This document shows, piece by piece, positions 6 to 38,437 of a DNA stretch of 50,048 nucleotides. The DNA is taken from positions 1 to 50,048 of the forward strand of contig NZ_KB889705.1 in the NCBI RefSeq assembly GCF_000372745.1, read 5' to 3'. The position numbers and the translations under genes were made by a program. The notes below the pieces were generated by a model. It was not told the origin of the DNA, made no database searches, and saw only the letters and a program-made list of their open reading frames with translations. Position 1 is the stretch's first letter; each line of letters starts with the position of its first letter. This stretch comes from Embleya scabrispora DSM 41855 (GTDB lineage Bacteria; Actinomycetota; Actinomycetes; Streptomycetales; Streptomycetaceae).

Positions 6-1378
6 GAAGTCCCCACACGCGTGGGGGTGAGCCGTCGTCCTCCGCGCGTCCGAACGCCGGGCCCGGGAAGTCCCCACACGCGTGGGGGTGAGCCGCACGG
101 CGATCATCACCGACGACTACGACACGGCGAAGTCCCCACACGCGTGGGGGTGAGCCGATCCGCCCACAGCCTCGCGAGCGTTGCGTTCGGAAGTCCCCAC
201 ACGCGTGGGGGTGAGCCGCAGGTCGGCGCTACCCCACCAGCTCACGACGGGAAGTCCCCACACGCGTGGGGGTGAGCCTCTGCGGTGTCGTGGCTGAATC
301 CGATCGGAAGCGAAGTCCCCACACGCGTGGGGGTGAGCCGCCTTGGTCGTCGGTGCGGACGCCGCTGGTGCAGAAGTCCCCACACGCGTGGGGGTGAGCC
401 GTCGGACATAGGCGTGATCGTCGTCATCGAAGAGAAGTCCCCACACGCGTGGGGGTGAGCCGCGGCCGGGTTCGATGGCGCACAGCTCGGCCGCGAAGTC
501 CCCACACGCGTGGGGGTGAGCCGTCGATCCGGCCTTGGTCGTGCAGCTGGGCCCACGAAGTCCCCACACGCGTGGGGGTGAGCCGGCGCTCGCTGGCGGC
601 ACCGTGATCTGGGCGGAGAAGTCCCCACACGCGTGGGGGTGAGCCGAACCTTCCTCCGCGACACCATCGACGTTGCACGAAGTCCCCACACGCGTGGGGG
701 TGAGCCGTCACGCAGGAACGCAAGGCCCAACGGCGTGCCGAAGTCCCCACACGCGTGGGGGTGAGCCGCCCGAACGCGGACGACACCAAGCCGAAACCCG
801 GAAGTCCCCACACGCGTGGGGGTGAGCCGGATCATGCCGATATCGCCCCCGTCGGCTGGCTGAAGTCCCCACACGCGTGGGGGTGAGCCGACCGCCACGG
901 CCCCGGGCTCCGAGGTCAAGCCGAAGTCCCCACACGCGTGGGGGTGAGCCGCTCAACTGGTAGTGCTGGGTCGCGGCGGTGTTGAAGTCCCCACACGCGT
1001 GGGGGTGAGCCGGTGCGCGGCGAGGACGATGTAGATCCGGACGGGAAGTCCCCACACGCGTGGGGGTGAGCCGGCCCAGGGGTCACAGTCGAGTTGGGCC
1101 CATGCGAAGTCCCCACACGCGTGGGGGTGAGCCGGGCAAGAAGAGCGGGAGCGCCGGGAGCACCGGGAAGTCCCCACACGCGTGGGGGTGAGCTGGCGGT
1201 GGACAGGGCGCTGATCCGGCGGTCCTCGAAGTCCCCACACGCGTGGGGGTGAGCCGAACGAGGCCGCCACCGAGGCGACCCCCGGCATGAAGTCCCCACA
1301 CGCGTGGGGGTGAGCCGGTCGGCCGCAAACTCCAGGAGTGGGGAACGGAGAAGTCCCCACACGCGTGGGGGTGAGCCG
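6..1378 (+). CRISPR. Type I-E-like CRISPR array, 23 repeats (left end outside window)
   Basis: Twenty-three 29-base repeats begin at 6, 67, 129, 190, 251 and so on to 1350, with period 61 (twice 62), giving 32-33-base spacers. Each repeat begins GAAGT and contains the core CCCCACACGCGTGGGGGTGA followed by GCCG. A 5-6-bp stem with a G-rich 3' side and a GAGCCG end is typical of type I-E repeats processed by Cas6e. By analogy with I-E repeats the plus strand is the transcribed strand, so the leader should lie upstream of base 1. Repeat 20 (1167) ends GAGCTG and repeat 5 (251) ends GCCT; the altered repeat near the right end fits the old, leader-distal side. The matching effector genes are 22 kb away (23227-31278). 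All spacers look different from one another by eye. Confidence 0.97.
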
Positions 1379-15249: not shown

Positions 15250-15312
15250 ATGACGGCTCGGGCAATGGTTCAGGCGCGACGGCGCGGCGCGGCGGGGGTG
15301 GTCGCGCTGTGA
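15250..15312 (+). CDS. 20-residue leader ORF coupled to the relaxase gene
   Basis: ATG 15250 opens a very basic 20-residue peptide, MTARAMVQARRRGAAGVVAL. Its stop TGA (15310-15312) overlaps the relaxase start codons GTG 15309 and ATG 15312. This arrangement would allow translational coupling. It may be chance, as no strong ribosome-binding site precedes it. Confidence 0.3.
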   Translation: MTARAMVQARRRGAAGVVAL

Positions 15313-22340: not shown

Positions 22341-22616
22341 ATGACAACGACGACGATCCAGGTCCCGCGGGAGACCCGCGATCATCTCGCGCAGCTGGCC
22401 AAGGAACGCGGGTTGAGCATCGGCCAGCTGGTCGAGGTACTCGCGGCCGAGCAGCCCACCGCCGCCCAACGCGCCGAGCGTCTGGCCGCCGACCGCGAGG
22501 CGGTGCGCTCGGTGATCGGGGTCCCGATCACCGACGAGGAATTCGAGCAGGCGCCCGACATCCTGGCCAACATCCACCGGATCGCCGCGGAGAAGGCCCG
22601 GAAACCCCTCGCGTGA
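22341..22616 (+). CDS. Antitoxin of a PIN-type toxin-antitoxin pair
   Basis: 91 residues beginning MTTTTIQVPRETRDHLAQLA. The N-terminal 45 residues have the strand-helix-helix pattern of ribbon-helix-helix repressors (TIQVPRETRDHLAQLAKERG then LSIGQLVEVLA). The acidic, helical C-terminal half (ITDEEFEQAPDILANI) is typical of the toxin-binding part of VapB-like antitoxins. It overlaps the toxin gene by four bases (GTGA). It should neutralise the toxin and repress the operon by binding near its own start. Confidence 0.75.
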   Translation: MTTTTIQVPRETRDHLAQLAKERGLSIGQLVEVLAAEQPTAAQRAERLAADREAVRSVIGVPITDEEFEQAPDILANIHRIAAEKARKPLA

Positions 22617-23011
22617 TCATCCTGGACACCGGCGCCGTCAAAGCCCTCGCCGCCGGCCACAAGACGCTCAACCTCCTCGCCGGCAACATGGCCCGCACCC
22701 CCGGGGATCATCTCGTGATCCCGGCCCTGTGCCTGACCCAGGCCGAAGCCGACGAACAGGACGTCTCCCGCCGAGTCCTGGCCCTGACCAGCGTGAACGT
22801 CGACCCCCTGGACACCGTCGCGGCGATCGGCGTCGGCACCATGATCCGCGACAGCCTCGGCGGCCCGGACACCTGCCACGCCCTGTACTGCGCCCTCCCC
22901 CGGGCAGAGTTCACCGGCATGTCCATCCTGCTCACCCCGCACGAGGACGCCTATCCCCCGGGCATCATCACCGTCGACATCGACTCACCCGGCATGCTCG
23001 GACACTGGTAA
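22613..23011 (+). CDS. PIN-domain toxin (VapC-like)
   Basis: 132 residues from GTG 22613. The N-terminus MIILDTGAVKALAAGHKTL carries the first metal-binding Asp of PIN domains (IILDTGAV). Acidic residues E/D near TQAEADEQD and the C-terminal GPDTCHALYCALPR provide candidates for the remaining active-site positions. VapC toxins are endoribonucleases that cut tRNA or rRNA; the target cannot be predicted. It is transcribed towards the cas operon and ends about 215 bases before the end of cas6e. Confidence 0.7.
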   Translation: MIILDTGAVKALAAGHKTLNLLAGNMARTPGDHLVIPALCLTQAEADEQDVSRRVLALTSVNVDPLDTVAAIGVGTMIRDSLGGPDTCHALYCALPRAEFTGMSILLTPHEDAYPPGIITVDIDSPGMLGHW

Positions 23012-23226: not shown

Positions 23227-23895
23227 CTACTCTTCCGGCCGTAGGGGCGCGATCGTCAGCAGCCCGCACCCATATGCCCGCCCTTTTCCGACGCCACCGA
23301 TCATCGCGGCCCGCAGCGCGTCGGGATCGACGATTTCTGCGGTGCCCTCGAAGCGGACGCGGTGGTGGCGCACCTTCTGAGCGCCACCACCGGTGCCGCT
23401 CCGGCCGACAGCGGCGTCCAGGGGGTGGGAGAGGTGGGTGTAAATCTTGAGACCGGCCAGGCCCGCCCGACGGTGCCACCAATCGTCGGCGTGGCGGCCG
23501 TGGAGGGCAACGAGGGGAGGCAGGTTCCTGTACAGCTCCCGCGTGGTGTGGCCGGGGCGGCGAACGGGGTTGGCATCGCAGCGGTAGGACAGGCGGCGGC
23601 CATGGGCAAGGGCGTTCAGGAGCGGCTCGATGTCGCGAGAAGCCGAGTCGACCGCGTATCCGTTCGGGAACCGCCCGGGAGCGACCTTTGTGTTGCTCTG
23701 GACCATGAGTACGACCTGTCGCTCGGCCTGCTCGACCCGGTGCAGTACACCGAAGTGGCTTCGTGCCCCTTCGATTTTGGGCAGGTCCGGGAAGAGGGAC
23801 ATCACGCGCCGGTGCATGGCGACGGCGTCGCGCAGTTCCCTGCGCACGTCGGCCCGGGAAGTGTCGAGAGTGAGGCGGGCGAGCCAGGTGGTCAT
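23227..23895 (-). CDS. cas6e: Type I-E pre-crRNA endonuclease Cas6e
   Basis: 222 residues from ATG 23895, which overlaps the cas5 stop (ATGA). Residues 24-35 read AVAMHRRVMSLFPD, placing the catalytic His of Cas6e at position 28. The C-terminal Gly-rich stretch IGGVGKGRAYGCGLLTI is the RNA-binding Gly loop of Cas6 proteins. Cas6e cuts repeat hairpins and remains on the crRNA 3' end as part of Cascade. It is the last gene of the operon and should process transcripts of both arrays at 6-1378 and 14982-15071. Confidence 0.95.
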   Translation of the reverse strand: MTTWLARLTLDTSRADVRRELRDAVAMHRRVMSLFPDLPKIEGARSHFGVLHRVEQAERQVVLMVQSNTKVAPGRFPNGYAVDSASRDIEPLLNALAHGRRLSYRCDANPVRRPGHTTRELYRNLPPLVALHGRHADDWWHRRAGLAGLKIYTHLSHPLDAAVGRSGTGGGAQKVRHHRVRFEGTAEIVDPDALRAAMIGGVGKGRAYGCGLLTIAPLRPEE

Positions 23896-24743
23896 ACGGC
23901 GGCCTCCGGACCGTCGGGCGAGGGCACGGCGGTGGTGTGCAGATGGGCGGCGAGGGCTTTGAGGTAGTTGTTGCCGAGTTCGCCGGTGTACAGGTGCTCG
24001 GGCGGGTGCCAGGAACCCCGGTAGAGCCGACGGGTGCGGAAGGTACGCCGGTCCGCGGCCGTGTCGACCGGTTCGTCTTGAACCTCGGTGCCGGGGCGGG
24101 TGCCGTCGTCGGGATCGTCGGGATGGCGTGGAAGCCAGCCGAGGGGGCGGTCGGCGAGCAGCGTCACCACGGGAGCCGGGGCCAATGCGGGCAACGGGAC
24201 TAGAAGAAGGCCGCCGAGGACGTCGGAGCTGCGGTCGAGCAGGACGGGCCCCTCGGGTGGGCAGCCGCGACGGCCCAGGTACAGGGGCCAACGCGGCGCG
24301 GCCAGCGCCTCGGCGCAGCGGTCGAGTACCCGCTCCTCCTGACCGCTGAGTGCGCAGACGAAGGCGGCGTCGGCGAGGTAGAGACGGTGGCCGTACACGG
24401 TGGACGTGTTGGCGCCGCGGGTGCCGCCCTTGGCCGTTTGCACGGTGTCCTTCGGGGCGAGGCCACCGCCGACGGTGTGCAGGTCGCGCAGCACGTAGCC
24501 GGCGCGGTCGATGCGGACGGTGAGTCTCAGTTGTCGCAGATCGTCGTTGGCCTGCCCTCGATGTCGGCCGAGCGCGCAGGACAGGAGGCCGAGCACACCG
24601 GACTTGGTGGGAAAGGCCGCGGTGTCACGCTCTTCGGTGAAGTGGCTGCGCTCTCCCCAGGATTGCAGCGGCGCGGCGAGGCGCAGCAGCAGCCCGGGCT
24701 CCTGTGGCGGCTGGGGCGCCTGGAGCGGCTGTGGTGCGGTCAC
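23892..24743 (-). CDS. cas5e: Cascade subunit Cas5e
   Basis: 283 residues from GTG 24743, overlapping the cas7 stop (GTGA). The conserved N-terminus LLLRLAAPLQSWGERSHFTE and the segment FPTKSGVLGLLSCALGR identify Cas5 of type I-E. The C-terminal RRLYRGSWHPPEHLYT and ELGNNYLKAL complete the RAMP fold. Cas5e caps the 5' handle of the crRNA and contacts the large subunit. Length is somewhat above the usual 220-250 because of an acidic, Pro-rich insert near residues 205-235. Confidence 0.93.
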   Translation of the reverse strand: MTAPQPLQAPQPPQEPGLLLRLAAPLQSWGERSHFTEERDTAAFPTKSGVLGLLSCALGRHRGQANDDLRQLRLTVRIDRAGYVLRDLHTVGGGLAPKDTVQTAKGGTRGANTSTVYGHRLYLADAAFVCALSGQEERVLDRCAEALAAPRWPLYLGRRGCPPEGPVLLDRSSDVLGGLLLVPLPALAPAPVVTLLADRPLGWLPRHPDDPDDGTRPGTEVQDEPVDTAADRRTFRTRRLYRGSWHPPEHLYTGELGNNYLKALAAHLHTTAVPSPDGPEAAV

Positions 24744-25936
24744 GCGCCGCCCTCCAGCGGGGCGAACGCGGCCGCCACACCGGCCTCGACCAGTGCGTCG
24801 AACGTGTCGAGGCGGGTGCCCAGTCCTTCGATCTCCCGACCGGTGCCGGCCCAGTGGGCAGCGAGGATGCGGTCGGTGCCCATGAGCGTGGTGGCGGTTT
24901 GTGCGTACTCGACGAGCTGGTCGCGGGAGGCGGTGCCGTGTCCGCCGCCTTGCGCGGAGCGCACGGGGGTCTCGAAGGCGGCGGCGAAGGACAGCGGGCG
25001 GTCGCTGCGGACGCTGATGTGGACGAGGTCCGGTGCGGTGTGCGGTGCGGTGGAGTTCTTCTTCGCCTGCGGCAGGGAGCGGATGAAGGAGGAGAGGAAG
25101 GCCCCGGCGATGTTGCGGGCGTCCTCGGAGACGTCCCGGGGACCGTCGGAGGAGGTGTGGACCTTCCCCATGTTGGTGACGAGTTCGCGTAGGTCGATGG
25201 TGGCGAACCGGTAGAAGGTGCCGGCGGAGAACTCGGCCTCGTTGAGGTGGCCGCTGCCGGTCTCGCCCCATGCCGCGTTCAGGTCGTCGACGGCGGTGAA
25301 GTAGTCGACTTGGACATCGCTGCGGTGGGTGGTGAAGGCGTGCGCGACCTGGACCGCGCCGTCGACGTCCGCGTCGTCGACTTCGGTGAGCATGCGGCCG
25401 AAGGTATGGATGACCGCGTTGCCCCGACGGATGATCTCTTGCACGTCGGCCGCGGGGAGCGGCGACTTGTCGGACGCCTTTTCGATCTTCTTTTTCTTGA
25501 TCTTGTCGGGGTGTTCGGCGGCGAGGTCGGCGAGTTCTTCGATCGACTCGGCGGACAGGTAAACGAGTCCGTTGGTGATGGCCTCGTAATCCTCCTGGTC
25601 CGGCTTCCCTTCGATGCCGAACTTGATGTTGGAGGCTGCCACGATGTGAGCGCCGGCCAGCCGTGCTCCTTGCTGATCCCAGCCGTGCTTCTCTGCGAGA
25701 ACCTCGGCAACGGCCCTGCCGATCCGACGAGTTCGGGTGGCGAACTGGCCGATCTCCTTCTGGAACTCCTGGCGCAGCGCCCTCTTCCAGGACTGGCTGC
25801 TGACGCGGGTGCGCCGTACGCCGCCGTAGTCCACCGTCTTGACGGCGTTGAGGTCGTCGCGGTTCAGCGTGGATACGGGGACGCTCTGAAGGACGTGTAC
25901 GTCCACGAAGCAGGCGGGCAGGTGCGCGGTCGGCAC
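24740..25936 (-). CDS. cas7e: Cascade backbone subunit Cas7e (Cse4/CasC)
   Basis: 398 residues from GTG 25936, chosen because AAGGAG lies just upstream; in-frame sequence further upstream belongs to cse2. The signature STLNRDDLNAVKTVDYGGVR followed by RTRVSSQSWKRALR is the highly conserved N-terminal region of Cas7e. The central part has a charged insert, DKIKKKKIEKASDK. Six copies normally line the crRNA in Cascade. It overlaps cas5 by four bases. Confidence 0.95.
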   Translation of the reverse strand: MPTAHLPACFVDVHVLQSVPVSTLNRDDLNAVKTVDYGGVRRTRVSSQSWKRALRQEFQKEIGQFATRTRRIGRAVAEVLAEKHGWDQQGARLAGAHIVAASNIKFGIEGKPDQEDYEAITNGLVYLSAESIEELADLAAEHPDKIKKKKIEKASDKSPLPAADVQEIIRRGNAVIHTFGRMLTEVDDADVDGAVQVAHAFTTHRSDVQVDYFTAVDDLNAAWGETGSGHLNEAEFSAGTFYRFATIDLRELVTNMGKVHTSSDGPRDVSEDARNIAGAFLSSFIRSLPQAKKNSTAPHTAPDLVHISVRSDRPLSFAAAFETPVRSAQGGGHGTASRDQLVEYAQTATTLMGTDRILAAHWAGTGREIEGLGTRLDTFDALVEAGVAAAFAPLEGGA

Positions 25937-25973: not shown

Positions 25974-26636
25974 TCAGGCGGTGGACGACGATCCGGGCTG
26001 AGGCACGGCCTGGGCGACGTCGGTTTGGTCCTTCGTCTTCCACTCGTCACGGTGGAGGGCGCGGAAGTAGTCCTGCTGCCAGCGGGTTCCGATGTCGGCC
26101 GCGTGCCAGGGCCAGCGGGTCAAGTCGTTCAGCAACTGGGCCCAGTCGGGTTCGACCTCGTACTGGCGCAGGAGGCGGGTGGCCGGGGGGAGGTAGCGGT
26201 GCAGCCCGGTAGGGCTCTGGCGGACGAGGAGGTCCAGTCGCCTGCGGGTACTGTCGCGCCGACGTGAGCGTTCTTGTGCGGGAGCGTTGAGGACGGCCTC
26301 GGCGAGGGTGTGGCCGAAGCTGGGGCCGTAGGTATCGATCGGCTGCTCCACCTCCGTGTCATCCGCCGGCCGGCCGCGGACAACGTGGCGGGGCTGGTCG
26401 GCGATGAGCGCGGCGATCGCGTAGTAGGCGCGGTCCCGCTCCCGGTTCCGCTTGTCCGGCAGCCAGTGCGCGACGAACTCATGCATCCCGGTCACCTGGT
26501 CGATGTCCTTGCCTACGCCGCGGCGCAGGCGCGCGTGTACCCCGGGGTTATCGGCACACAACCGCCGGATCTCCCGTACGAAACTCAGGTGTTCGGTGCG
26601 GCGTGCCCGTGTGGCGGCATCGCGGACCTCTGTCAT
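25974..26636 (-). CDS. cse2: Cascade small subunit Cse2 (Cas11e/CasB)
   Basis: 220 residues from ATG 26636, 29 bases after cas8e. The all-helical protein shows Cse2 hallmarks: RLCADNPGVHARLRRGVGKD near the N-terminus, then YYAIAALIADQP and, in the C-terminal half, RRLDLLVRQSPTGLHRYLP and LLNDLTRWPWHAADI. Two copies normally bind the belly of Cascade and stabilise the non-target strand. Nothing unusual is seen. Confidence 0.9.
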   Translation of the reverse strand: MTEVRDAATRARRTEHLSFVREIRRLCADNPGVHARLRRGVGKDIDQVTGMHEFVAHWLPDKRNRERDRAYYAIAALIADQPRHVVRGRPADDTEVEQPIDTYGPSFGHTLAEAVLNAPAQERSRRRDSTRRRLDLLVRQSPTGLHRYLPPATRLLRQYEVEPDWAQLLNDLTRWPWHAADIGTRWQQDYFRALHRDEWKTKDQTDVAQAVPQPGSSSTA

Positions 26637-26665: not shown

Positions 26666-28282
26666 CTACTTGTTCTTGCGCTCAGGGCGCGTCATCCACA
26701 GCAGGCCACGGGCGTCCAGCACGGCTTGGTTGCCGCGGACGGTGCGGGTGAGCGGCTCGGTCGTGCGCGCATATGCCTCGCGGGCCAGTCCCAGAAAGGC
26801 GTCGCGCGCGGCGCGGATGTCCAAGCCGCCATCGGGGTCCTTGCCGGTGCGATCGAGGTGGTCGAAGCGAATCCAGAACTCACGTTCGGCAGCGGGCCAG
26901 TACAGGGCCTCGGCCTGTGGGACGAGTTTGCCTGCGTGCTTGGGATCGCCCCTCGTGTACAGCGCCCAGGCCTTGCGTACCGCTTCGGTGAGGTTCTCCC
27001 CGTACCGTTCACCGAGCCTGCGCAAGCGACCGACCGCGACCTGAGCATCGGGGAACCGATCGGACAGGTGGCCCACAGTCGCGGAAGTGAGTCCGCTGAC
27101 GAGCTGGGTGTTCTTGGCCTTGTTCTGATCGAAGCCGAGTGCCCGGACGCGCAGTTGCTCGGTGAGCTCTACCGCCGTTGCGAACACCTTTGGTGGCTCC
27201 AGCGTGGTTTCCTCGCCGTCGGCCTCCGGCGGCCGGTGCAGCAGCAGACCGTCCAGGTCCCTCCACAGGGCTCGGTTCGCCTTGGCCCGCCGGGCGGTGC
27301 GAATCTCCTCCCCCGGCTTGTTCTTGTCGAGCCTGCGTTCCCAGATGAGGTACGGATCGTCGAAGGCTCCGGGGAGGCGGTATGCCCAGGTGATGCGGGC
27401 GTTCGTGACGCGCTCTCGGCGAGCATCGGGCTGGAGTAGGAGAGCATGCCGCGAGGTGTCCGTCCACCAGCCGCAGGGGCCGACCGGCACCGGCGGAGCG
27501 CCCGCCGGGTCGGTCGGCTCGTCCCGCTCCCAGGGGCACAGATCTTCCTCGCGTCGCACCTCTGTCCCCGGCCGCACGAGCCCGGCGAGCAGGGTGACCA
27601 GTAACGAGTCCCCTTCCGGGTGGTAGGAGAGCGAGCTGAAGAGCGGTCCGCGCTTGGCCTCGGAGATCCGCTCCCCGTGGAGTGCGCGGGCGGTGCACTT
27701 GCCGGGAGCGCCGTAGTAGTGCCACATCAGCAGGTACGGCACTGCCGTGGCTGCGGAGGGCGGGCGCGGGGCGCTGTCGCGAACGTGGCCGAACCAGGAG
27801 TGGTTGTTGCCCGAAGGCCGGGTCATCACCAGCTTGTTCACGCCGGTCGACTCGGTGCACTCGTCCGCCAGACGCGAGTCCTGCAGCCACGGACGGCCGG
27901 TGGCGTCGTCGAAGAGAAAGAATCGCTCGTGACGCTGGGAGATGTAGTTCTCGATGCCGCCCTGCGGCAACGCGCGGTGTTTCAGGATGCGCGCGCGCCG
28001 GTGCATCCAGTCGCCGTTCCGATCCCGGTCGTCCTGATCCTGGGCGTCCCGATCCTGGTCGTCTTGATCCTCGTAGTGCCGCCGCTCCTGGTCGAGCTTG
28101 GTGACCCGCGCGGTGAGCGCGTACAGCACCCGCAGGAGCGCCGACTGGGCGGCGGCAAGCGGGACATCCAGGGCTTCGATGTGCTGGCAACGCTCCAGAA
28201 GCCCCCGGAAACCGACGGACTCGGGGCCATCCTGGCCGGGGAGCCAGCGCACGGGGATCCACGGCTCGTCGAAGAGATTCAT
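26666..28282 (-). CDS. cas8e: Cascade large subunit Cas8e (Cse1/CasA)
   Basis: 538 residues counting from ATG 28282 (MNLFDEPWIPVRWLPGQDG, the classic Cse1 N-terminus). The open frame extends 38 codons further upstream, but that part is not family-like. LLRVLYALTARV, HRRARILKHRALPQGGIENY and the GNNHSWFGHVRDSAPRPPSA region follow in the usual order. Cas8e recognises the PAM and recruits Cas3. The 182 bases between cas3 and this start hold no extra gene. A short D/R/Q-rich low-complexity insert (DDQDRDAQDQDDRDRNGD) near residue 70 is unusual. Confidence 0.94.
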   Translation of the reverse strand: MNLFDEPWIPVRWLPGQDGPESVGFRGLLERCQHIEALDVPLAAAQSALLRVLYALTARVTKLDQERRHYEDQDDQDRDAQDQDDRDRNGDWMHRRARILKHRALPQGGIENYISQRHERFFLFDDATGRPWLQDSRLADECTESTGVNKLVMTRPSGNNHSWFGHVRDSAPRPPSAATAVPYLLMWHYYGAPGKCTARALHGERISEAKRGPLFSSLSYHPEGDSLLVTLLAGLVRPGTEVRREEDLCPWERDEPTDPAGAPPVPVGPCGWWTDTSRHALLLQPDARRERVTNARITWAYRLPGAFDDPYLIWERRLDKNKPGEEIRTARRAKANRALWRDLDGLLLHRPPEADGEETTLEPPKVFATAVELTEQLRVRALGFDQNKAKNTQLVSGLTSATVGHLSDRFPDAQVAVGRLRRLGERYGENLTEAVRKAWALYTRGDPKHAGKLVPQAEALYWPAAEREFWIRFDHLDRTGKDPDGGLDIRAARDAFLGLAREAYARTTEPLTRTVRGNQAVLDARGLLWMTRPERKNK

Positions 28283-28464
28283 CGCCTGTGGCACTTCCAC
28301 AGTTCTCCCGGTCTCCTGTTCGTTTCCGTCCCGCAGGGCCGCACGGCAAGTCCGTCTCGTCGGAATGGCGCGCACCAATGGTGCTGTCGAGGGCACCTTC
28401 CGTAGCCGTTGGTTGTCGGAGATCGTAAGCGGTCACGGCTCGCAGCGCGGCCCGTTTCGGGGAA

Positions 28465-31278
28465 TCAACCGAGTCTGACCAGGCCGGTCCTGGTGAGTTC
28501 GAGCCGCATGCTCCCGAGGAGTCCGGTATAGGTATCGCTGGCTCCGCTGACCACCACCGGGTACACGTGGTTCAGCCATGTCCGCTTCTTCCAGTGGTTG
28601 TACTTGATGTTGTCGAATCGATCGCGGCCGATCTGCGCCGAGATCCCGCCCTCGGGCGCCCAGTGCGCCGGAACCGAGATCGTATGTTGGGCCAGAGCGG
28701 CCACGGCCGGACTACGCTTGTCGCCCCCCACGAACGGCACCTTTTCCTTCCCCTCCGGATCCAGGTAGGCGGTCTTGTCCCGGAGGTGGACGCACAGAAC
28801 ATACGCCTGCTCGAACCCCATCGTGGCCGCGAGATGCGCCTCGGTGAGACCGCGCTCGGCCCGGGTCAGCGCATACAGGTCGTCGTGAACGTCCGCCGGG
28901 CTCGGGATGCCGGTGAGCCTGGCGTCGTGCAGCAGCCTGGCCTCGTGGCCGTGGGCCTCGGTGTCCAGTCGGCGCTGCCGCACAGCCGATACGTCGTCGA
29001 GAGTGGCCAGGTAACTGTCCGAGTCGTACACCTGGCGGATCAACCGCTCGACGTGATCGGGGAGAAGGAGTTCCGAACCGTGGGAACGGAGCGTTCGGAT
29101 CGTGCGCTGCCTCAGCGCTCGGTCCATCGGCGAATCGGCCTGTGCCTCGCTTCCCAGGAGCAGTAGATGCCGACCGCGGGAGGCACGGGCCAGCAGCGAG
29201 GGCAGCGGGACCACAGGTGTGACGACCCACTCGAAGCGGAAGGGGAGATGTTCGGCGAAGGAAGCGGTGGTAACGAGCACCGAATCGCCTTGCGCCGGGT
29301 CTTGGTGAGCTGCTGTGCACTCCGCCACAAGTTCGCGGACACGATATCGGGGGAAGCGCGAGTGCAGCAGCCGAAGCTCGCGGGGCATCGCGCGCCGGCG
29401 ATGCAGATGTTCGAGCGCACGGAAGGTCCGCTGGGCTTCCTCCTCACTGCTGCAGCACACGAGGGTCGAGCCGCTGTCCCCGACTTCGCGCATGACGGAG
29501 TCCACGTACGTGTCTGCGCCGCCGGGCCACGGGTGGACTTCGGACACGGAGACGCGCAGAACCGAGTCCGCAGGAGGATCGACCGCGAATTCGGTGACCG
29601 CGCCGTCCTGTCCGTCGACATGCAGCCAACCCGGCTGTGGCAGTTCCGCCGACGAGCGCGCGCCCTCCTGTCCGCTCCGCGTTCCCCGAGCCAGTCGCGC
29701 GCCCCTTTGATAGGCCTGCACCAAGCGATGGGCACTCGCGCCGGCCAGGGTGTCGGTCAGCAGCACGACGGATGCCCCGAGCGCCGCCAGCCACTCCACG
29801 AGCAGGCACAGGAGTTGATGCAGCCGGGGCTTCTGCGGACGCACGTCGTCCACCACGAGAACCTTCTCGCTGAGTGCGAAGAGCCGCACGGCGTTGTCCG
29901 GCACCGGCAGGACGGCCGGCAGGAATTGGTCGTGGGCGCCCACCCCGAGGGGAGCCAGTAGCCCGCGCCGCCGCAGGGTGAGCCACTGCTGTGCGACGGC
30001 CCGGGCCTGTGGCGTGTCGAAGCTGAGTTCGGGGATCTCCTCGGAGGCCGACTCGGGATCGCTGTCGAAGGCCATTTGGTGAAGACGGGTGAGCGTACCG
30101 AAGCCCTCCAAAAGCATGCCCGCCAACGACGCCAACTCTCCCGACGCCTCATCGAGGTGAAGCTCTTCCGGCAGGGCGAGAGCAATACCCCGAGCCCCGG
30201 ACGCCCGGCCCAACCGCGAGGCCGCGACCAGCCCGAGCCGCCGGCGGGCGGGCCCAGCCGGAGCGCTAACGAGCAGCATGCCGGGACCTGCGGGCTCGGT
30301 CGTTGTGAGCAACTGTTGCGCGAGCCGACCGTGCACGGAGCCGTCCGGGAACCCGGCCGCACTCAACAGCTTCTCCCTCGCCGGGGTGGCGAATCCGCAC
30401 TGCCCCAGAGTTCGCTGCTCAACCCCGGTCCGGGCCACCTCCCGGGCACGCTCCCAGTGCTGCGCAAGGGCTTTGCTGCAGCAGCACTCTTCGTCCTCGA
30501 GACGCCGCACCGTGTTGATCGACTCCTTGTCGCTGGCCATCCAGTCCGCCACCATCACCGCGCCGAGCACCACGACCGCGAGCTCGGCCGGGAGAGTTCC
30601 GGTGGGTACCGGGCCGTCGTGCGCGATCAGCGTGCGCAATACACGGACGTGGTGCAGGCGTTGCTCAGGCCACTTGCCCTTCCCGGCCTGCGGTAGGAAC
30701 GTCGCCGGATGCTTCAACTGCCGACGGTCCATCCGCGGGTGGAAGACTCCGTGGTGGCCACCGAGCAACTGCCCGATAGCGTGACCGACCCGGTCGCCGA
30801 CCGGCCCCTCGGGATCACCCGGCGGATAGCCCAGCTGTTCGAGAATCCCGGGCAGGGTCCAGTGCGTGATCTTGCCGTGTGGGCCCGCGCCGTTGTCCGT
30901 GCCGCCTGTGCCGTTCCAGTAGCGGCGGTCGGCGAATACCTTCTCGAAGCACCCCGGGTACCCCTTCCGCACTGAGTGCTGGTACGACGGTGAAATCTTC
31001 CCCACGTCGTGCAGCGCCGCCCAAAAGGCCAGTTCTCGCGTGGCATCGAGCTCCGACAACCCCAAGGCCAGAGCGATCCGGGCATGCATGCGCGGGCCGA
31101 CAGCCGACTCCCACAAGGCCGCGAAGTAAGCGCCGGTGTCGACGAGGTGGCACACCACCGGGTATGGGGGCTTCATGCCTTGCTCCTTGCCCCATAGGCG
31201 GACGTCCAGGAGCCGGGGATTGCCGTGGTGGCAGCGGTTGTTCTCGGCGCCGACGCCACATTCGGTGGTGATCTCCAT
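28465..31278 (-). CDS. cas3: Cas3 with intact HD nuclease but degenerate helicase motifs
   Basis: 937 residues from ATG 31278 (MEITTECGVGAE). HD domain: CHLVDTGAYFAALW, AALHDVGKISPSYQH (about residue 86), LLGGHHGVF and VMVADWMAS keep all expected His/Asp ligands. In the helicase part, the position of Walker A reads LLVSAPAGPARRRLGL (about 335-345) instead of G-x-G-K-T. DEVH is replaced by VLVVDDVRPQ (about 472), SAT by LTDTLAG, and the Q-R-x-G-R motif VI by LLARASRGRH (about 690-700). The surrounding fold is still recognisable, for example HQLLCLLVEWLAALGASVVL. The frame is uninterrupted and the length normal, so this is not simple decay. A Cascade-recruited, ATP-independent nicking nuclease is the inferred function. 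Confidence 0.88.
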   Translation of the reverse strand: MEITTECGVGAENNRCHHGNPRLLDVRLWGKEQGMKPPYPVVCHLVDTGAYFAALWESAVGPRMHARIALALGLSELDATRELAFWAALHDVGKISPSYQHSVRKGYPGCFEKVFADRRYWNGTGGTDNGAGPHGKITHWTLPGILEQLGYPPGDPEGPVGDRVGHAIGQLLGGHHGVFHPRMDRRQLKHPATFLPQAGKGKWPEQRLHHVRVLRTLIAHDGPVPTGTLPAELAVVVLGAVMVADWMASDKESINTVRRLEDEECCCSKALAQHWERAREVARTGVEQRTLGQCGFATPAREKLLSAAGFPDGSVHGRLAQQLLTTTEPAGPGMLLVSAPAGPARRRLGLVAASRLGRASGARGIALALPEELHLDEASGELASLAGMLLEGFGTLTRLHQMAFDSDPESASEEIPELSFDTPQARAVAQQWLTLRRRGLLAPLGVGAHDQFLPAVLPVPDNAVRLFALSEKVLVVDDVRPQKPRLHQLLCLLVEWLAALGASVVLLTDTLAGASAHRLVQAYQRGARLARGTRSGQEGARSSAELPQPGWLHVDGQDGAVTEFAVDPPADSVLRVSVSEVHPWPGGADTYVDSVMREVGDSGSTLVCCSSEEEAQRTFRALEHLHRRRAMPRELRLLHSRFPRYRVRELVAECTAAHQDPAQGDSVLVTTASFAEHLPFRFEWVVTPVVPLPSLLARASRGRHLLLLGSEAQADSPMDRALRQRTIRTLRSHGSELLLPDHVERLIRQVYDSDSYLATLDDVSAVRQRRLDTEAHGHEARLLHDARLTGIPSPADVHDDLYALTRAERGLTEAHLAATMGFEQAYVLCVHLRDKTAYLDPEGKEKVPFVGGDKRSPAVAALAQHTISVPAHWAPEGGISAQIGRDRFDNIKYNHWKKRTWLNHVYPVVVSGASDTYTGLLGSMRLELTRTGLVRLG

Positions 31279-31457
31279 GCGAGTGTTGTAGCAGCCGTCA
31301 TGAGCCAACCGGCGGCGAACGGCGAGTACTTGGCGTACAGTCGACGGTGGGTCGAGGAGATCCGGCGCCACACGGCAGGGGATGCGTCCCCACGGCCAGT
31401 GACACCGCCCCGCGGGTCCAGCCGGCCCGTGGCACCGAATCTCCCAGAGGTGTCTAC

Positions 31458-31565
31458 ATGAACGAGTCCCAGAACCGCTGCGGTGGGTTCCTCAAGCTGG
31501 TCGCCGGCTCCTTCGTCGGCAAGGTGCTTGCGGGCATCCTGCTGGAGTGGTGGTCAGGGCAGTAG
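31458..31565 (+). CDS. 35-residue hydrophobic peptide divergent from cas3
   Basis: ATG 31458 is preceded by AGAGG nine bases upstream and opens MNESQNRCGGFLKLVAGSFV followed by GKVLAGILLEWWSGQ. Residues about 10-31 form a hydrophobic or amphipathic helix ending in two tryptophans, as in small membrane-acting peptides. A perfect UUCG-loop terminator begins 12 bases after the stop, which supports a real transcription unit. It is the first gene on the other side of the cas3 promoter region. No family is recognised; small toxin or holin-like peptide is one possibility. Confidence 0.5.
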   Translation: MNESQNRCGGFLKLVAGSFVGKVLAGILLEWWSGQ

Positions 31566-31576
31566 TCCCAACCCAC

Positions 31577-31598
31577 GGCCCGGACTTCGGTCCGGGCC
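31577..31598 (+). terminator. UUCG-loop terminator after the 35-residue peptide gene
   Basis: Stem GGCCCGGAC / GTCCGGGCC (9 bp, perfect) with tetraloop TTCG, followed by ACCTTGTT. Confidence 0.85.
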
Positions 31599-31891: not shown

Positions 31892-32938
31892 TCACAGCAC
31901 GCCATCGAGGACGTTCTCGTGGAATTGCCTTGCGCGGCGCACGTATTCATGGACGACCGGCGAGTTCGGACTCCAGCGACCGTGGACCGCGATGTCGTGG
32001 ACGGAGGCGCCTCCGTCGGCCGCGGCGGTGGCGCCGCCGGAGCGCAGGGAGTGTGCGGTCACCAGGTACGCGGAGGGCACGTCGGCCAGGACGGCGCGTT
32101 TGCGGACGATCCTGTTCGCGTGGTGATCGCTGAGCGAGGAGCCGATGCTCTGGCTCGAGCCCTTCCCGATCGAGCGGATCAGTCGTCCCGTGGTGACGCC
32201 GCGTTCAGCCAGCGCCGTACACCAGGCTGAGACGGCCCGCACCGGATCGATGTCGGGGTGTCGTCCGTGCGGGATGGCGACGACGACGCCCTCGGCCCTG
32301 CGGTCCGTCTTGGACCTGAGGATGCGTACCAGCAGGCCGCGTTCCTCCACGCTCACGTCATCCAGGTCCAGCGCGACGATCTCACTGCGGCGCCCCATCA
32401 GCGCGAAACCCAGGACCAGGATCACTCGGTCCCGCAGGCCCGACAGGGCGGTGGTGTCACACGTCGCGACCGCAGCACGCAGAGCGTCGACGCGCAGCGG
32501 CGGGGCCTTGCGCTTGGCCAACCCCCGGTCGGCGCGCTCGCGTTGGTGGTCGTCGATCACCTTGCGCGCGGTGGTGGTGTCCGGGATCGGCACCCCGTCC
32601 GCGCGGTGACGCGCGCACACCGCGTACATCGCCCGCCGGATGGTGGAGGGCGCGTAGTCGGCGACGACCAGGTGGGTGACGTAGGCGGCCAGAGTCGCCC
32701 ACGTCGTGGGCAACGCGACCCGCGGTGCGGGCCGCCCGGCACGGTCTCGGGCCGTCGCGCACCAGCGCTCGAACGCCTCCCAGTCCCGCGTGTAGGCGCG
32801 CACTGTCTCCCCGGAACGCCCGCGCAGAACCCGCCGGATCGTCTCGTCGGGCAATTCGAAGTCGGCCGCGCCATACGCGGGGACAACCTCGGCCTCCACC
32901 AACGACTCACTACGCGGGGCGAGTTCGCCCCCGCTCAC
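31892..32938 (-). CDS. Tyrosine recombinase (phage integrase/Xer-like)
   Basis: 348 residues from GTG 32938, which overlaps the stop of the small upstream gene (GTGA); the frame is open to 32962. The SAM-like N-terminal domain covers about 30-150 (TIRRVLRGRSGETVRAYTRD, ERWCAT). The catalytic domain contains the expected residues in order: Arg in GFALMGRRSEIVALDLDDV, Lys in ILRSKTDR, H-x-x-R in TAHSLRSGGATAAA, then HGRWSPNSPVVHEYVR with the His/Trp position and the nucleophilic Tyr. The enzyme should cut and rejoin DNA at a specific site. The 34-bp palindrome at 33163-33196, just upstream of this operon, is an obvious candidate. Confidence 0.92.
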   Translation of the reverse strand: MSGGELAPRSESLVEAEVVPAYGAADFELPDETIRRVLRGRSGETVRAYTRDWEAFERWCATARDRAGRPAPRVALPTTWATLAAYVTHLVVADYAPSTIRRAMYAVCARHRADGVPIPDTTTARKVIDDHQRERADRGLAKRKAPPLRVDALRAAVATCDTTALSGLRDRVILVLGFALMGRRSEIVALDLDDVSVEERGLLVRILRSKTDRRAEGVVVAIPHGRHPDIDPVRAVSAWCTALAERGVTTGRLIRSIGKGSSQSIGSSLSDHHANRIVRKRAVLADVPSAYLVTAHSLRSGGATAAADGGASVHDIAVHGRWSPNSPVVHEYVRRARQFHENVLDGVL

Positions 32939-35081: not shown

Positions 35082-36815
35082 TCATTCCCCGTCGGGAAGT
35101 TCGCGCATGAACGCGTGGGTCGACTGGCCCCAATAGCAGCGGAGATTATCGAAGACGGCGGGGTCGCGATGCATGTTCTCGGCCTTGGCATAGGCAAGGA
35201 AGAGTAGGTCGAGGGCGGTTACAGTCTCACGGATCAAGGCGACAAGGTCGTCGACCTCGCTGCCGTTGATTCCTGCTTTGGCAACGGACTTGAGTCGGTC
35301 GTAGATGTCACGCACGAAGATGTGGCGGTGGTTCAGACGGACGATGGCCTTCTCGTTGAGATGATCGATCTCGAAGATTTCCTTTCCCGGCCAACCGCCG
35401 TCCATCAGCGTGAACGGGTTCTCCTGAATATGCTTGCGGACTTCCTCAGACTTTTCCTGGTTATCGGCCAGGCCGAGGTCCTCAAGGATCTCTTGAACGA
35501 TCCGTGCGTTGTCCTCCTTGGTGAATTGTTTGCCGGCCTGCCCCATCGGGGACGTCCTGTTGGCGCGTGACGCGGCCTGCGTTGCCGAGCTGTGCTCTTT
35601 GGCCTTGGCCAAGTCCGATGTCGCCACCTCGCCCCAGTGACGACGGATCTCCTGACGGGCAAGCCTGACGGGGCGTTTGAGCCATTCACGGAGCTCCGCC
35701 CGGAGCTTGTCGACCGGCACGGCACCTCTCTTGACGTTGCGTACCTGGAAGAAGTCGTCCAGCGCGGCGGGGAATGTCACCTCGATACCGATGTAACGGT
35801 CGACCTTGTCCACGCCAGCCGGAAGCAGCTTGGGCACGATGTCGTAGTTGATCTCGCGCCCGTTGCGGACCATGCTGATCTTCCCGGCACTGTCCGGGAT
35901 GTGGAACTCTCGGATATCGCGACCGTTGTTGTCACATTTGCCGCCTTCACCCTCTTTCCAGCGAAACTCGACGGGAGCAATGGTGACAGTGACCTCGATA
36001 CTCTCGCCATCGGCGATCTCGATCTTCGCCCGGTCGATCACCTTTCCCAGGAGGCCGGCCCTGGGGTATTTCTTGACGATGCGCGGGTTGTCCATGAGGA
36101 ACAACGGGTCGAAGAGAGTCACGTCGGTTCCGTCGAGCTCGATCCTCAATCCCGCGTCCAGGAACTTCCGATAGGCGCGGGCGATGAAGTTGCGCAGGTC
36201 GGCCAACTTCTCGGTGAGGCTCGTGCCGAAGGTGCCTCCGTCCCTGAGCTTATCGATCTTTCCGTACACCACGAGTGTGCCGGAGTCGAAGGCGGTGCCG
36301 TCTGTGTTCGTCATGGCTGCTGCGAATTCGTCGGGCCAGCCGTCGAGCTCACGTGCCCGGATGTGCGTCTGCTGCTCGTTCTTGATTTCCTCCAGGTCTA
36401 GATGGGCATGCCTGATGGCGTCGTCGCCTGATTGCTTGGTGTAGACGTCGATGCGCCTGCCGAGGCTGAGACCGGCAAGCTTGAGGCCGACTCCGAACCG
36501 TCCCAGACCGTCGCGGCGGCGCCCATATCGGTTGCTGAAGCCCATGGACAGCACCAAGGCGACGATGCTGGCTTCGATGCCCCGGCCGTTGTCGGCAAAC
36601 GCAATCGCGTTAATGGAGCGCCTGTCCGTTTCGTACCGCACGAGGACGCGGATGAGATTGGCGCCTGCCTCTACGGAATTGTCGATCGGCTCCCCGACTG
36701 CGGCAGTGAGGTCGAAGCCGGAGTCGCGCATGGACTCCAATGCGTTGGCGACCTGGATGATATCTGCCTGTGGCATGGATGGGGTGAAGAGCCGGGAAGT
36801 GGAGTCGGTGCTCAC
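35082..36815 (-). CDS. GHKL (Hsp90/MORC-type) ATPase of a sigma-like operon
   Basis: 577 residues from GTG 36815, overlapping the stop of the 42-residue gene (GTGA). The Bergerat fold is clear: motif N VGEPIDNSVEAGAN, motif G1 FADNGRGIEA, motif G2 DGLGRFGVGLKLAGLSLG. The S5-like transducer part includes FHIPDSAGKISMVRNGREIN and YIGIEVTFPAALDDFFQVRN. A Lys/Glu-rich helical stretch around 400-460 may dimerise or bind DNA. Such ATPases act as ATP-driven clamps, and MORC/MutL relatives occur in restriction-type systems. It is a different protein from the MORC ATPase at 38438. Its operon partners are a sigma-region-4-like protein and a 42-residue protein. Confidence 0.88.
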   Translation of the reverse strand: MSTDSTSRLFTPSMPQADIIQVANALESMRDSGFDLTAAVGEPIDNSVEAGANLIRVLVRYETDRRSINAIAFADNGRGIEASIVALVLSMGFSNRYGRRRDGLGRFGVGLKLAGLSLGRRIDVYTKQSGDDAIRHAHLDLEEIKNEQQTHIRARELDGWPDEFAAAMTNTDGTAFDSGTLVVYGKIDKLRDGGTFGTSLTEKLADLRNFIARAYRKFLDAGLRIELDGTDVTLFDPLFLMDNPRIVKKYPRAGLLGKVIDRAKIEIADGESIEVTVTIAPVEFRWKEGEGGKCDNNGRDIREFHIPDSAGKISMVRNGREINYDIVPKLLPAGVDKVDRYIGIEVTFPAALDDFFQVRNVKRGAVPVDKLRAELREWLKRPVRLARQEIRRHWGEVATSDLAKAKEHSSATQAASRANRTSPMGQAGKQFTKEDNARIVQEILEDLGLADNQEKSEEVRKHIQENPFTLMDGGWPGKEIFEIDHLNEKAIVRLNHRHIFVRDIYDRLKSVAKAGINGSEVDDLVALIRETVTALDLLFLAYAKAENMHRDPAVFDNLRCYWGQSTHAFMRELPDGE

Positions 36816-36940
36816 GTTGCGCTCCTTGTCGACGACGTTCCACTGACGAGGTAGGCCGTAGCTGTAGTGGATTTTGTGCCGTTCTTCGGGAAGGCGAGGG
36901 CATGCTGCCGTATCAGTTCGCGGCAGCCGCAGGTCTTCAT
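36812..36940 (-). CDS. 42-residue protein between sigma-like and GHKL genes
   Basis: ATG 36940 opens MKTCGCRELIRQHALAFPKN and ends TSSTRSAT. It overlaps the upstream gene by four bases (ATGA) and the downstream ATPase gene by four bases (GTGA); this double overlap is strong evidence that it is translated. It has two cysteines near the N-terminus (CGC) and a Ser/Thr-rich C-terminus. No family is recognised. It may be an accessory subunit or a shortened remnant of a larger protein. Confidence 0.6.
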   Translation of the reverse strand: MKTCGCRELIRQHALAFPKNGTKSTTATAYLVSGTSSTRSAT

Positions 36941-37407
36941 GAGGTCGTTGTCCGGGCGTAGGCCCTGCGGGCCCGCGCGCGGAGACGGGAGATGCGCTCG
37001 CGCATCCGACAGGGGCTGATGTTGAAGGCGGCCGCCAGTACCGCGATGTCCGGGTCGATCGTGAGCATTTGTACTAGAATGCGTTCCTCGTGCGTGAACG
37101 TGGGGGTGGTCTGCAACCACTCGCGGAGCTCCACGGTCGCGAAGTCGTCCTCCAGGCAGCTCGGTTCCTGATGCGCCCGGATCTCGCTCAGGGGCGTAAC
37201 CGGCACGAGGGCACGGCGCTCACGCAGGACGGTCCCGGAGTGTGCCAGGGCGCTGCGGACCTGGAAGGGCGCGGGCGAGGTGCCGTTGAGCCGAATGACC
37301 TCGTCCGAGGCGCGGTCGATGCGCTCGAGTTCGTACATCTCGCAGTGCCTCTTGGCACGGCATTGAAGCAGCGTGAGGGCACGCTGCGCCTGCTCGGTGA
37401 GCAACAC
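36937..37407 (-). CDS. Sigma-70 region-4-like HTH protein
   Basis: 156 residues from GTG 37407, with AGGAG close upstream. The last 50 residues (THEERILVQMLTIDPDIAVL, AAAFNISPCRMRERISRLRA) form a helix-turn-helix of the sigma-70 region 4 type. The N-terminal part (QRALTLLQCRAKRHCEMYEL, RIDRASDEVIRLNG) is helical, but no region 2 motif is obvious, so a genuine sigma factor is doubtful. It heads a three-gene overlapping operon with the 42-residue protein and the GHKL ATPase, and may control that operon or recruit the ATPase to DNA. Confidence 0.7.
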   Translation of the reverse strand: MLLTEQAQRALTLLQCRAKRHCEMYELERIDRASDEVIRLNGTSPAPFQVRSALAHSGTVLRERRALVPVTPLSEIRAHQEPSCLEDDFATVELREWLQTTPTFTHEERILVQMLTIDPDIAVLAAAFNISPCRMRERISRLRARARRAYARTTTS

Positions 37408-37510
37408 GTCTCCTGAGTCTGACTGCGTCCCCCGTACGGTGGGACGCGGTCGCGTTCTGTGGAGGATCTGAAGTTGGTGGGACGGGCACCGCGCGGGCCG
37501 GTCCTTGACG

Positions 37511-37753
37511 ATGTTCGAGATTCGGTCTGCTCGTGCCTCAACTACGAAGGGCGGGTGGGGAGATGAGGTCTTGCGCTTCCGGCGGGACGATTCTCACCAA
37601 GTCCACTGCCTGGTGCCCGTTCCGGGGAGGGAGTACCGACGGGAGCCTTGCAGCGACTTCGCCGTGGTGCGCCATTCGTTCGAGCACTCCTTGCATACCC
37701 GTCAGTGTCGGTCGGCGTGCGCGGCGACGAAGTACCGCTTCATGTCAGGGTGA
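37511..37753 (+). CDS. Small hypothetical protein, weak evidence
   Basis: 80 residues from ATG 37511 (TTG 37505 also possible). The middle is rich in His and Cys: DSHQVHCLVPVPG, REPCSDFAVV, RHSFEHSLHTRQCRSACAAT. This could form a zinc site. There is no clear ribosome-binding site, and neighbouring sequence is a relic region, so it may be an old gene fragment. Confidence 0.25.
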   Translation: MFEIRSARASTTKGGWGDEVLRFRRDDSHQVHCLVPVPGREYRREPCSDFAVVRHSFEHSLHTRQCRSACAATKYRFMSG

Positions 37754-37824
37754 ATTCCCGGAGATCGGCTCTACCCCCAGGTGGGGACACCTCACCGCCC
37801 AGCGCTTCACCGCAGGTGGGTTGG

Positions 37825-38165
37825 TCGCGGGATGCGATTCCGGCGGCTTTCCCGGAGCCGGGGCGCGACGCCAACGTGTCCCCACGCGGCGCGGTCTCCC
37901 GTGACCCCGCCGCACGCGCCCCCGGCCTCGGGATCCGCTGCCGCGTTCCCGATCCTGCCCGGTCTCGGCGGGGTCCGACCTGGTCGATCGCGATGCCGGC
38001 CAAGGGGTACGAGGGGGACGCCCCGCAGGTTGTCGTCGTGGGCGCGACCGTCGTGGTGGCCACGCCGACCGATCCGACCTCGGCCGGCTACGAGTTCGGC
38101 GTCCCGGCACGGGCCACGAGGCCGCAACGGGTCGAGCTGCGGGATCCGGCGACCGGCGCGCCCGG
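37825..38165 (+). pseudogene. Fragment duplicated from the lipoprotein gene at 48460
   Basis: The sequence matches 48515-48870 along its length at roughly 80 % by eye. In the readable frame it gives WSIAMPAKGYEGDAPQVVVV and EFGVPARATRPQRVELRDPA, corresponding to WSIAMPPKGYEDDAPQVVVG and EFGVPARAARPQRVELRDPA in the other copy. It lacks the signal sequence start and the C-terminal propeller. The two copies flank the MORC/Z1 island, in the same orientation. Confidence 0.75.
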
Positions 38166-38437
38166 AGCCCGTGACGAACCCGGCTCCGCGCACCGACTCC
38201 GGCATCGGATCCGATCTGCGCGCGGCACCACGGGAGCCCGACTCAAGACGCCCGATTCGGGCGGTCTTGCGTTGTCGGTGTGTTTGGACGGGCCGTCGCG
38301 CCGGGCCTGTCGAGGGCGCTCAGATTCTGCCTACCGACCGTCGGCAGGGCGCAAATCGTCGACGGTATGGCGTTTTTCGCGCGTAAGCAGTTGACTACCC
38401 CGGGGACAGGTATGACCGACGTTCGCACACCGCAGTA
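38166..38437 (+). promoter_or_regulatory. Upstream region of the MORC/Z1 operon
   Basis: No gene. TTGACT near 38385 followed at a short distance by TATGAC is the nearest match to a promoter, but the spacing of about 14 bases is too short for a confident call. An AT-richer patch (GCGTTTTTCGCG) precedes it. Confidence 0.3.

Follow-up and report, generated by a model that had tools for sequence, protein, structure and literature searches.

A type I-E CRISPR-Cas locus of Embleya scabrispora encoding a full-length Cas3 with intact HD ligands and destroyed helicase motifs

Introduction

Type I immunity by clustered regularly interspaced short palindromic repeats (CRISPR) and Cas proteins is understood as the joint work of Cascade and a processive Cas3. 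We analysed a window of 50,048 nucleotides (nt) from Embleya scabrispora DSM 41855 (contig NZ_KB889705.1; draft genome 98.3% complete, 190 contigs), the window being the whole stretch of DNA under study, and describe here its type I-E locus, in which a full-length cas3 has kept the ligands of the HD nuclease and lost the motifs of the helicase.

A type I-F Cas3 becomes a nickase when a residue of motif I, II or VI is replaced by alanine (K458A, D608A, R887A; PMC8753164), and helicase-dead EcoCas3 keeps an ATP-independent cleavage of single-stranded DNA, degradation of the target requiring the helicase (PMC9427990). Among natural loci, Streptomyces variants of type I-E lacking cas1, cas2 and cas3 have been recorded beside STAND NTPases and small membrane proteins (Shmakov 2018, cited in PMC12231136), and other I-E loci lack cas1 and cas2 and carry tnsB and tnsC (Faure 2019, cited in PMC12231136). 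The variants I-E2, I-E3 and I-E5 are named in PMC12669027, which also draws attention to an active HD domain in the CRISPR-associated transposon (CAST) I-E5. The literature searched, which took in few subscription papers and many sources in part, contained no report of a Cas3 that is full length but helicase-dead.

The cas3 gene and its relatives

An earlier reading, made from the letters of the DNA (hereafter, the sequence-only reading), had reported an uninterrupted cas3 of 937 codons at 28465-31278. Frame and length stand; the strand, which it did not give, is minus, and the plus strand of the same interval contains several stops. The open frame on the minus strand extends over 28465-31371 and comprises 968 amino acids (aa) when counted from a GTG; we take the ATG at 31278 as the start of the gene, because the closest relatives start at the same place. 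The gene and its parts are the following.

28465..31278, minus strand: cas3, 937 aa, HD ligands intact and helicase motifs destroyed (frame, Pfam, PDB alignment, motif table, NCBIfam)
30532..31155, minus strand: HD domain, residues 42-249 (TIGR01596 match; ligands from the motif table)
30232..30267, minus strand: former Walker A, residues 338-349, SAPAGPARRRLG (motif table against relatives)
29833..29856, minus strand: former motif II or DEAH box, residues 475-482, VVDDVRPQ (motif table against relatives)
29746..29763, minus strand: former motif III or SAT, residues 506-511, LLTDTL (motif table against relatives)
29239..29277, minus strand: former motif V, residues 668-680 (motif table against relatives)
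29170..29196, minus strand: former motif VI, residues 695-703, LLARASRGR (motif table against relatives)

Helicase motifs I, II, III, V and VI of the window Cas3 are destroyed. A phmmer comparison with the PDB places the protein in register with Cas3 of Thermobifida fusca (4qqw, 6c66; E ~4e-76), the alignment spanning residues 48-733 of the 968-residue frame. T. fusca APMGEGKTEA is aligned with APAGPARRRL (Walker A), VVDEAHAV with VVDDVRPQ (motif II), LLSATL with LLTDTL (motif III) and LLQRAGRC with LLARASRG (motif VI); likewise, VATQVVEQSLDLD of T. fusca is aligned with VTTASFAEHLPFR of the window. The altered motifs quoted in the sequence-only reading are thus all present at the true motif positions, and the objection that this reading had raised against itself, namely that the true motifs might lie elsewhere in the protein, fails because the alignment is in register. 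Residues found in 22 of 22 helicase-intact relatives are substituted (K345R, E478D, H480R, S508T and Q697A), as is G344 of Walker A, which became alanine, and D477, R698 and R701 are retained; the protein does not carry the superfamily 2 helicase motifs I, II, III and VI.

The window Cas3 retains an HD nuclease with its metal ligands. The seven positions checked (H44, H90, D91, H134, H175, H176 and D245), which from T. fusca Cas3 we take to be those ligands, are all kept, as they are in the 22 intact relatives compared, which bears out the earlier claim of an intact set. Profile matches follow the same division: the HD part passes in NCBIfam (cas3_HD, 54.9 bits, cut-off 43.45) and is matched in Pfam (Cas3_HD, 1.7e-32), cas3_core reaches 39.6 bits (cut-off 102.45; 155 and 154 bits in two intact relatives), and the Pfam C-terminal helicase domain of Cas3 falls slightly below its cut-off (26.1 vs 27 bits). 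The predicted Cas3 fold persists, as had been supposed from the pattern of the sequence: an AlphaFold2 model (28 rows) has a mean predicted local distance difference test score (pLDDT) of 83 and a predicted template modelling score of 0.89, and its top Foldseek matches are T. fusca Cas3 chains (template modelling score ~0.76).

Close relatives share these losses. Among 95 Cas3 rows from the loci collected (copies with identical C-terminal ends were merged, and a few truncated duplicates may remain), 79 have all 19 checked residues intact and 16 do not, the latter being 13 rows of a second helicase-dead group, one row altered at its N-terminal end (L088), one unrelated row that is degenerate (L089) and a close homologue of the window Cas3 with 681 of 936 residues identical (L095, genome G395). 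Named genomes scanned with the window Cas3 alone yielded no relatives; a second scan, with an alignment of two sequences as query, recovered loci in Streptomyces triticagri NEAU-YY421, which has the same gene as G395 and is probably one genome with it, and in Streptomyces huiliensis SCA2-4. Their Cas3 proteins are 73% and 74-75% identical, respectively, to that of the window, and in both the HD ligands are intact and the dead motifs are repeated nearly letter for letter (APAG[PA]ARRRLG, VVDDVRPQ, LLTDT and LLARASRGR); the open frames are ~940 codons long in all three genomes, and between S. huiliensis and the window the Cascade proteins show 79-91% identity. Viral contigs held no relatives of the window Cas3, and phage records gave two partial Cas3 matches.

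Selection was estimated by pairwise Nei-Gojobori ratios of nonsynonymous to synonymous substitution rates (dN/dS) for the three pairs among the window, S. triticagri and S. huiliensis. The values are 0.35, 0.39 and 0.30 for the whole of cas3, 0.36, 0.33 and 0.25 for the HD part, 0.16, 0.33 and 0.18 for the dead RecA1, 0.52, 0.42 and 0.51 for RecA2 and 0.48, 0.54 and 0.39 for the C-terminal part. The dead RecA1, in which Walker A and B are lost, is under purifying selection among the three members; two pairs show it as the most constrained part of cas3, and in the remaining pair it equals HD. Since two close homologues share the dead motifs and RecA1 is under purifying selection, the window Cas3 is not one degenerate copy, which disposes of the second objection named in advance by the sequence-only reading. 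That cas3 is degenerating on a silent system, a view already disfavoured, is extremely unlikely: the long Cas3 branch (2.38) and the failure to find cas1 in the draft genome (Pfam profile and one I-E Cas1 query; cas2 was not searched for) are consistent with decay, and against it stand the recurrence of these dead motifs, in open frames of ~940 codons, in all three genomes, the RecA1 values of 0.16-0.33 and a window array in which 21 of the 23 repeats are identical.

Three side observations concern Cas3 relatives and their loci. Between the window and S. triticagri, cas3, cas8e, cas11 and cas7 are 72-86% identical, cas6e only 37-38% (window 23227-23895; L152 17040-17708), and the repeat differs, as if cas6e and repeat had been exchanged together. 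A 1197-aa protein elsewhere (L115 7458-11051), in which N-terminal helix-turn-helix domains are fused to a Cas3 part whose HD (D245N) and motifs II and VI are altered, is possibly a Cas3-derived regulator; visual inspection of the genes predicted in the 20 kb around it revealed no cas operon. Finally, weak Cas3 matches (~25-31% identity) lie inside frames of ~1340-1740 aa in many genomes of the same family, and these giant Cas3-like proteins perhaps form a family of their own.

Effector operon, arrays and spacers

The gene stands at the head of a type I-E effector operon of the order cas3-cas8e-cas11-cas7-cas5-cas6e, all on the minus strand and with Cascade complete, and the window also carries an array of type I-E dimensions (29-nt repeats, ~32-nt spacers).

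26666..28300, minus strand: cas8e (cse1) (domain scan)
25974..26636, minus strand: cas11 (cse2) (domain scan)
24740..25936, minus strand: cas7e (domain scan)
23892..24743, minus strand: cas5e (domain scan)
23227..23895, minus strand: cas6e (domain scan)
6..1378, plus strand: CRISPR array, 23 repeats GAAGTCCCCACACGCGTGGGGGTGAGCCG and 22 spacers of 32-33 nt (repeat search)

The stem of the repeat is CCCCAC/GTGGGG. Further arrays, whose repeats are identical or closely similar, occupy eight stretches of four other contigs of the genome; counting the window as well, there are 115 repeat matches (with lone copies included and as many as 7 mismatches allowed) and 96 spacers, one of them duplicated. 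A lone repeat-like 29-mer, GAACTCCCCACGCAGGTGGGGGTGAGCCG, lies outside the arrays at 14982-15010 of the window.

The search of phage records covered arrays that contain 69 of the genome's 96 spacers; plasmids were searched with the window array. In the terminase gene of mycobacteriophage FF47, 30/32 positions agree with the window spacer at 341-372 (E 2e-4), which matches related phages as well; for Streptomyces phage Raleigh the match is to a spacer from another array, covers exactly its 32 bases with 29/32 identical (E 0.2) and has its mismatches at spacer positions 22, 24 and 26, away from the seed. Such matches suggest that the own spacers include phage-directed guides. The plasmid matches of the window array are, by appearance, mostly repeats of other arrays. 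Self-targeting was considered for spacer 463-494, which has the best match in its own genome outside arrays (89%, E 0.002), and rejected: the 3' half alone matches well, and we do not count the match as a target because the differences and a gap fall in the seed half.

A second helicase-dead group

The second group comprises 13 loci from eight genomes and five linear Streptomyces plasmids. Its Cas3 has Walker A lysine replaced by arginine, has lost residues of motifs III and VI and keeps the DEAH box; the five plasmid copies carry the NCBI name CRISPR-associated endonuclease Cas3''. The median dN/dS of RecA1 is 0.17 in this group (nine loci, 36 pairs); intact relatives, compared in nine pairs from seven loci, have 0.13. 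For whole cas3 the values are 0.28 (nine loci) and 0.25 (the same seven loci and nine pairs), respectively. Arrays are present in 9 of the 13 sequence stretches, and five of the eight genomes have a Cas1 match somewhere.

The two helicase-dead groups are perhaps related, to judge from trees of the Cascade proteins. The best of these join the window group with the 13-locus group (Shimodaira-Hasegawa-like approximate likelihood ratio support 90; 89/86; 84/89) and nest the window, next to the second group, inside the intact I-E relatives of Streptomycetaceae; they are not decisive, as a placement of the window group with the intact relatives is not rejected by the approximately unbiased test (p 0.105 and 0.164). 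The Cas3 tree, with its long branches, was not relied on. Both groups have lost 28 conserved Cas3 positions, 4 of which changed to the same residue. The helicase may have been lost once or twice in parallel, both courses being possible.

Proposed mode of action

We favour, giving it an even chance, the reading that the locus is a type I-E effector that has been remodelled and not lost, and whose Cas3 would cut or nick without ATP and without translocation. Cascade, carrying guides from the arrays, would open an R-loop on matching DNA and recruit Cas3 to it; the HD domain would then cut or nick the displaced strand independently of ATP, and the dead RecA domains would form a docking and strand-guiding scaffold that neither pulls nor unwinds DNA. 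With the RecA domains dead, the target would be nicked or blocked in place instead of shredded. Cutting or nicking without ATP is favoured because the window Cas3 is naturally in the state of the published helicase mutants. The sequence-only reading had proposed a Cas3 selected to nick or briefly cut without translocation, or to act as a regulator. Selection without translocation is well supported by the shared dead motifs and the constraint on RecA1; the nicking we infer from the intact HD ligands and those mutants, and the recruitment, the ATP independence and the defensive purpose of the window system are inferred as well. A role as a regulator is conceivable, the results speaking neither for nor against it.

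Several observations weigh against this reading. The HD ligand H176 is replaced by glycine in 13 of 13 rows of the second group. RecA2 (0.42-0.52) and the C-terminal domain (0.39-0.54) are under weaker constraint in the window group. The FF47 and Raleigh protospacers have flanks CGT and GCC and not AAG or AAN, the Raleigh match taken alone has an E of 0.2, and these two were the only phage matches worth reporting from 69 of the 96 spacers. In addition, the genome of E. scabrispora encodes an orphan type I-G-like Cas3g with helicase domains.

Given H176G, nicking may not be what the 13-locus group retains. A binding-only block, in which Cascade holds the target, the Cas3 shell stabilises it or blocks polymerases, so interfering with transcription or replication, and HD activity is residual or unused, fits that group better, its HD site being impaired: all 13 rows lack an otherwise invariant ligand, yet the protein is under purifying selection. 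Binding of type I effectors without Cas3 is also reported to repress transcription (PMC9427990). We consider such a block unlikely for the locus described here, as all three genomes of the window group retain the seven HD ligand positions and the dN/dS of their HD part is 0.25-0.36. What the two groups have in common may be the want of a motor rather than a nickase.

The orphan Cas3g also makes it conceivable that a motor is supplied in trans, by this protein or by a host helicase, after Cas3 has nicked the DNA. It is encoded on contig C133 (L153 6101-8659), scores 617 bits to TIGR02621 and is adjoined by an aminotransferase gene. A second Cas3 above the cas3_core cut-off is likewise found in three of the eight genomes of the second group. 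Help of this kind is highly unlikely, since no cas3_core match above the cut-off, which also misses the I-G type, was found in the other seven helicase-dead genomes searched (that of E. scabrispora and G395 included), and no cas neighbour of Cas3g was recognised within 17 kb around it. No second I-E Cas3 was found in the E. scabrispora genome.

The small divergent open reading frame upstream of cas3

In 16 of 16 loci of both helicase-dead groups, a divergent open reading frame (ORF) of 35-39 codons lies upstream of cas3. In the window, the features are:

31458..31565, plus strand: divergent ORF of 35 codons, MNESQNRCGGFLKLVAGSFVGKVLAGILLEWWSGQ, kept in two relatives (ORF comparison)
31577..31598, plus strand: hairpin resembling a terminator, downstream of the small ORF (recognised by eye; also present in S. 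triticagri)

A terminator-like hairpin also follows the ORF in the 13-locus group. Within the window group (the window, S. triticagri and S. huiliensis) the ORF is 35 codons long and shares the core GSFVGK.LA.IL; in the 13 loci it is 39 codons long and reads [MV]SRFL...ELV[SG]WL[FI]. Length and frame are kept in 3/3 and 13/13 loci, respectively. In the 13-locus group the evidence for coding is moderate (median dN/dS 0.35 in 11 loci; 16, 10 and 20 variable sites by codon position in 13 loci). As a proven gene, the ORF of the window group was rejected, with dN/dS of 0.68-1.28 and 11, 6 and 7 variable sites by codon position. A crude scan of 35 other loci found one short hydrophobic ORF similarly placed (L064, intact Cas3). 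The conserved small divergent ORF beside cas3 probably belongs to the unit.

In a further explanation, the peptide of 35-39 aa would be a membrane-active effector or toxin under the control of Cascade and the dead Cas3, so that target recognition or loss of Cascade would stop the cell. Besides the presence of the ORF in 13/13 and 3/3 helicase-dead loci, this explanation draws on peptide profiles that match their own kind alone at E < 0.1 among the loci searched, on the small membrane proteins recorded with a Streptomyces I-E variant (Shmakov 2018, cited in PMC12231136) and on CreTA and CrePA as precedents (PMC8501985, PMC12737573). We nevertheless regard an arrest or toxin unit as quite unlikely. 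No crRNA-like (CRISPR RNA-like) element stands out upstream of cas3, the substitutions in the window-group ORF do not prove coding, profile searches with either peptide family do not recover the other, and the ORF of L064 lies upstream of an intact cas3.

A CreTA-like guide, which would lie between degenerate repeats beside the toxin gene, was sought by a degenerate-repeat test, which measures similarity only, so that a strongly degenerate element could escape it. In the 13-locus group, where two conserved palindromic stretches upstream of cas3 had looked repeat-like by eye, 16 of 17 locus-repeat comparisons lay within the shuffles and one beat all 60, and the candidate was rejected; in the window, the upstream region matched the repeat at 17/29 positions, a value reached by 8 of 60 shuffles, and is not CreTA- or CrePA-like. 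The two palindromic stretches of the 13 loci, which are strongly conserved, are separated by ~40 nt and lie in the interval from the small ORF to cas3; not repeat-like by score, they are possible operators.

Genomic surroundings

The contig looks like a plasmid or an integrative and conjugative element, on account of two TrwC-type relaxase genes (7164-8711 and 15309-20135), an Mza-like defence set (35082-47678) and, next to cas3 and the small ORF, a tyrosine integrase (31892-32938).

35082-36776, on the other strand than the rest of the Mza-like set: second MzaB-like HATPase (domain scan)
38438-39967, opposite to the second MzaB-like HATPase: MzaB-like HATPase (domain scan)
40018-42834, Mza-like set: MzaC/Z1 (domain scan)
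42855-43817, Mza-like set: DUF4420 (domain scan)
43810-45573, Mza-like set: AIPR (domain scan)
45792-47678, Mza-like set: C5 methylase (domain scan)

Next to the operon on its cas6e side, at 22341-23011, a weak ribbon-helix-helix match is followed by a 132-aa protein with no Pfam or NCBIfam match, in a toxin-antitoxin layout.

Comparison with known systems

Returning to the reading of a Cas3 that cuts or nicks without a motor, it is possible, though somewhat short of an even chance, that Streptomycetaceae hold an undescribed I-E line with non-motor Cas3, in which the two groups (three and thirteen loci), both keeping the dead RecA1 under selection, would form with the micropeptide gene a guide-directed device for nicking, blocking or arrest, and the shredding of targets would be dispensable to a type I system that has large arrays. 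If a natural, selected Cas3 without a motor is real, target shredding is not required; such proteins would be natural nickase scaffolds, and how HD cutting and translocation share the work could be tested in native loci. The micropeptide gene linked to cas3 gives a concrete starting point for finding a hidden partner.

Among described systems, the minimal Streptomyces I-E variant (PMC12231136) resembles the locus in its Streptomyces relatives, its type, the absence of a visible cas1 and a short hydrophobic peptide nearby; it differs in lacking cas3, which is full length in the window, where no STAND NTPase was recognised beside it. With the I-E loci carrying tnsB and tnsC and with CAST I-E5, the window shares the order cas3-cas8e-cse2-cas7-cas5-cas6 without adaptation genes in Streptomycetaceae (in the window, cas1 was not found and cas2 not searched for). 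No tnsB or tnsC was recognised among the window proteins scanned, a subset of its ORFs. Cas5 and Cas11 of the window show their own domains alone (no HNH, no PD-(D/E)xK), which sets the locus apart from I-E2 and I-E3. Like CreTA and CrePA (PMC8501985, PMC12737573), it has a small gene beside a type I cas operon; unlike them, no crRNA-like element was detected upstream of cas3.

With type I-E Cas3 of T. fusca (4QQW, 6C66) and of intact Streptomycetaceae systems, the window protein shares domain order, fold, HD ligands and operon, and it differs from them in its destroyed motifs I, II, III, V and VI, being predicted to lack ATPase activity and translocation. Its predicted state, with helicase residues lost and HD kept, is that of the engineered Cas3 nickase (PMC8753164) and of helicase-dead EcoCas3 (PMC9427990). 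Those proteins, as the sources describe them, are laboratory point mutants of types I-F and I-E, whereas the window Cas3 is natural, carries many substitutions and is conserved between species.

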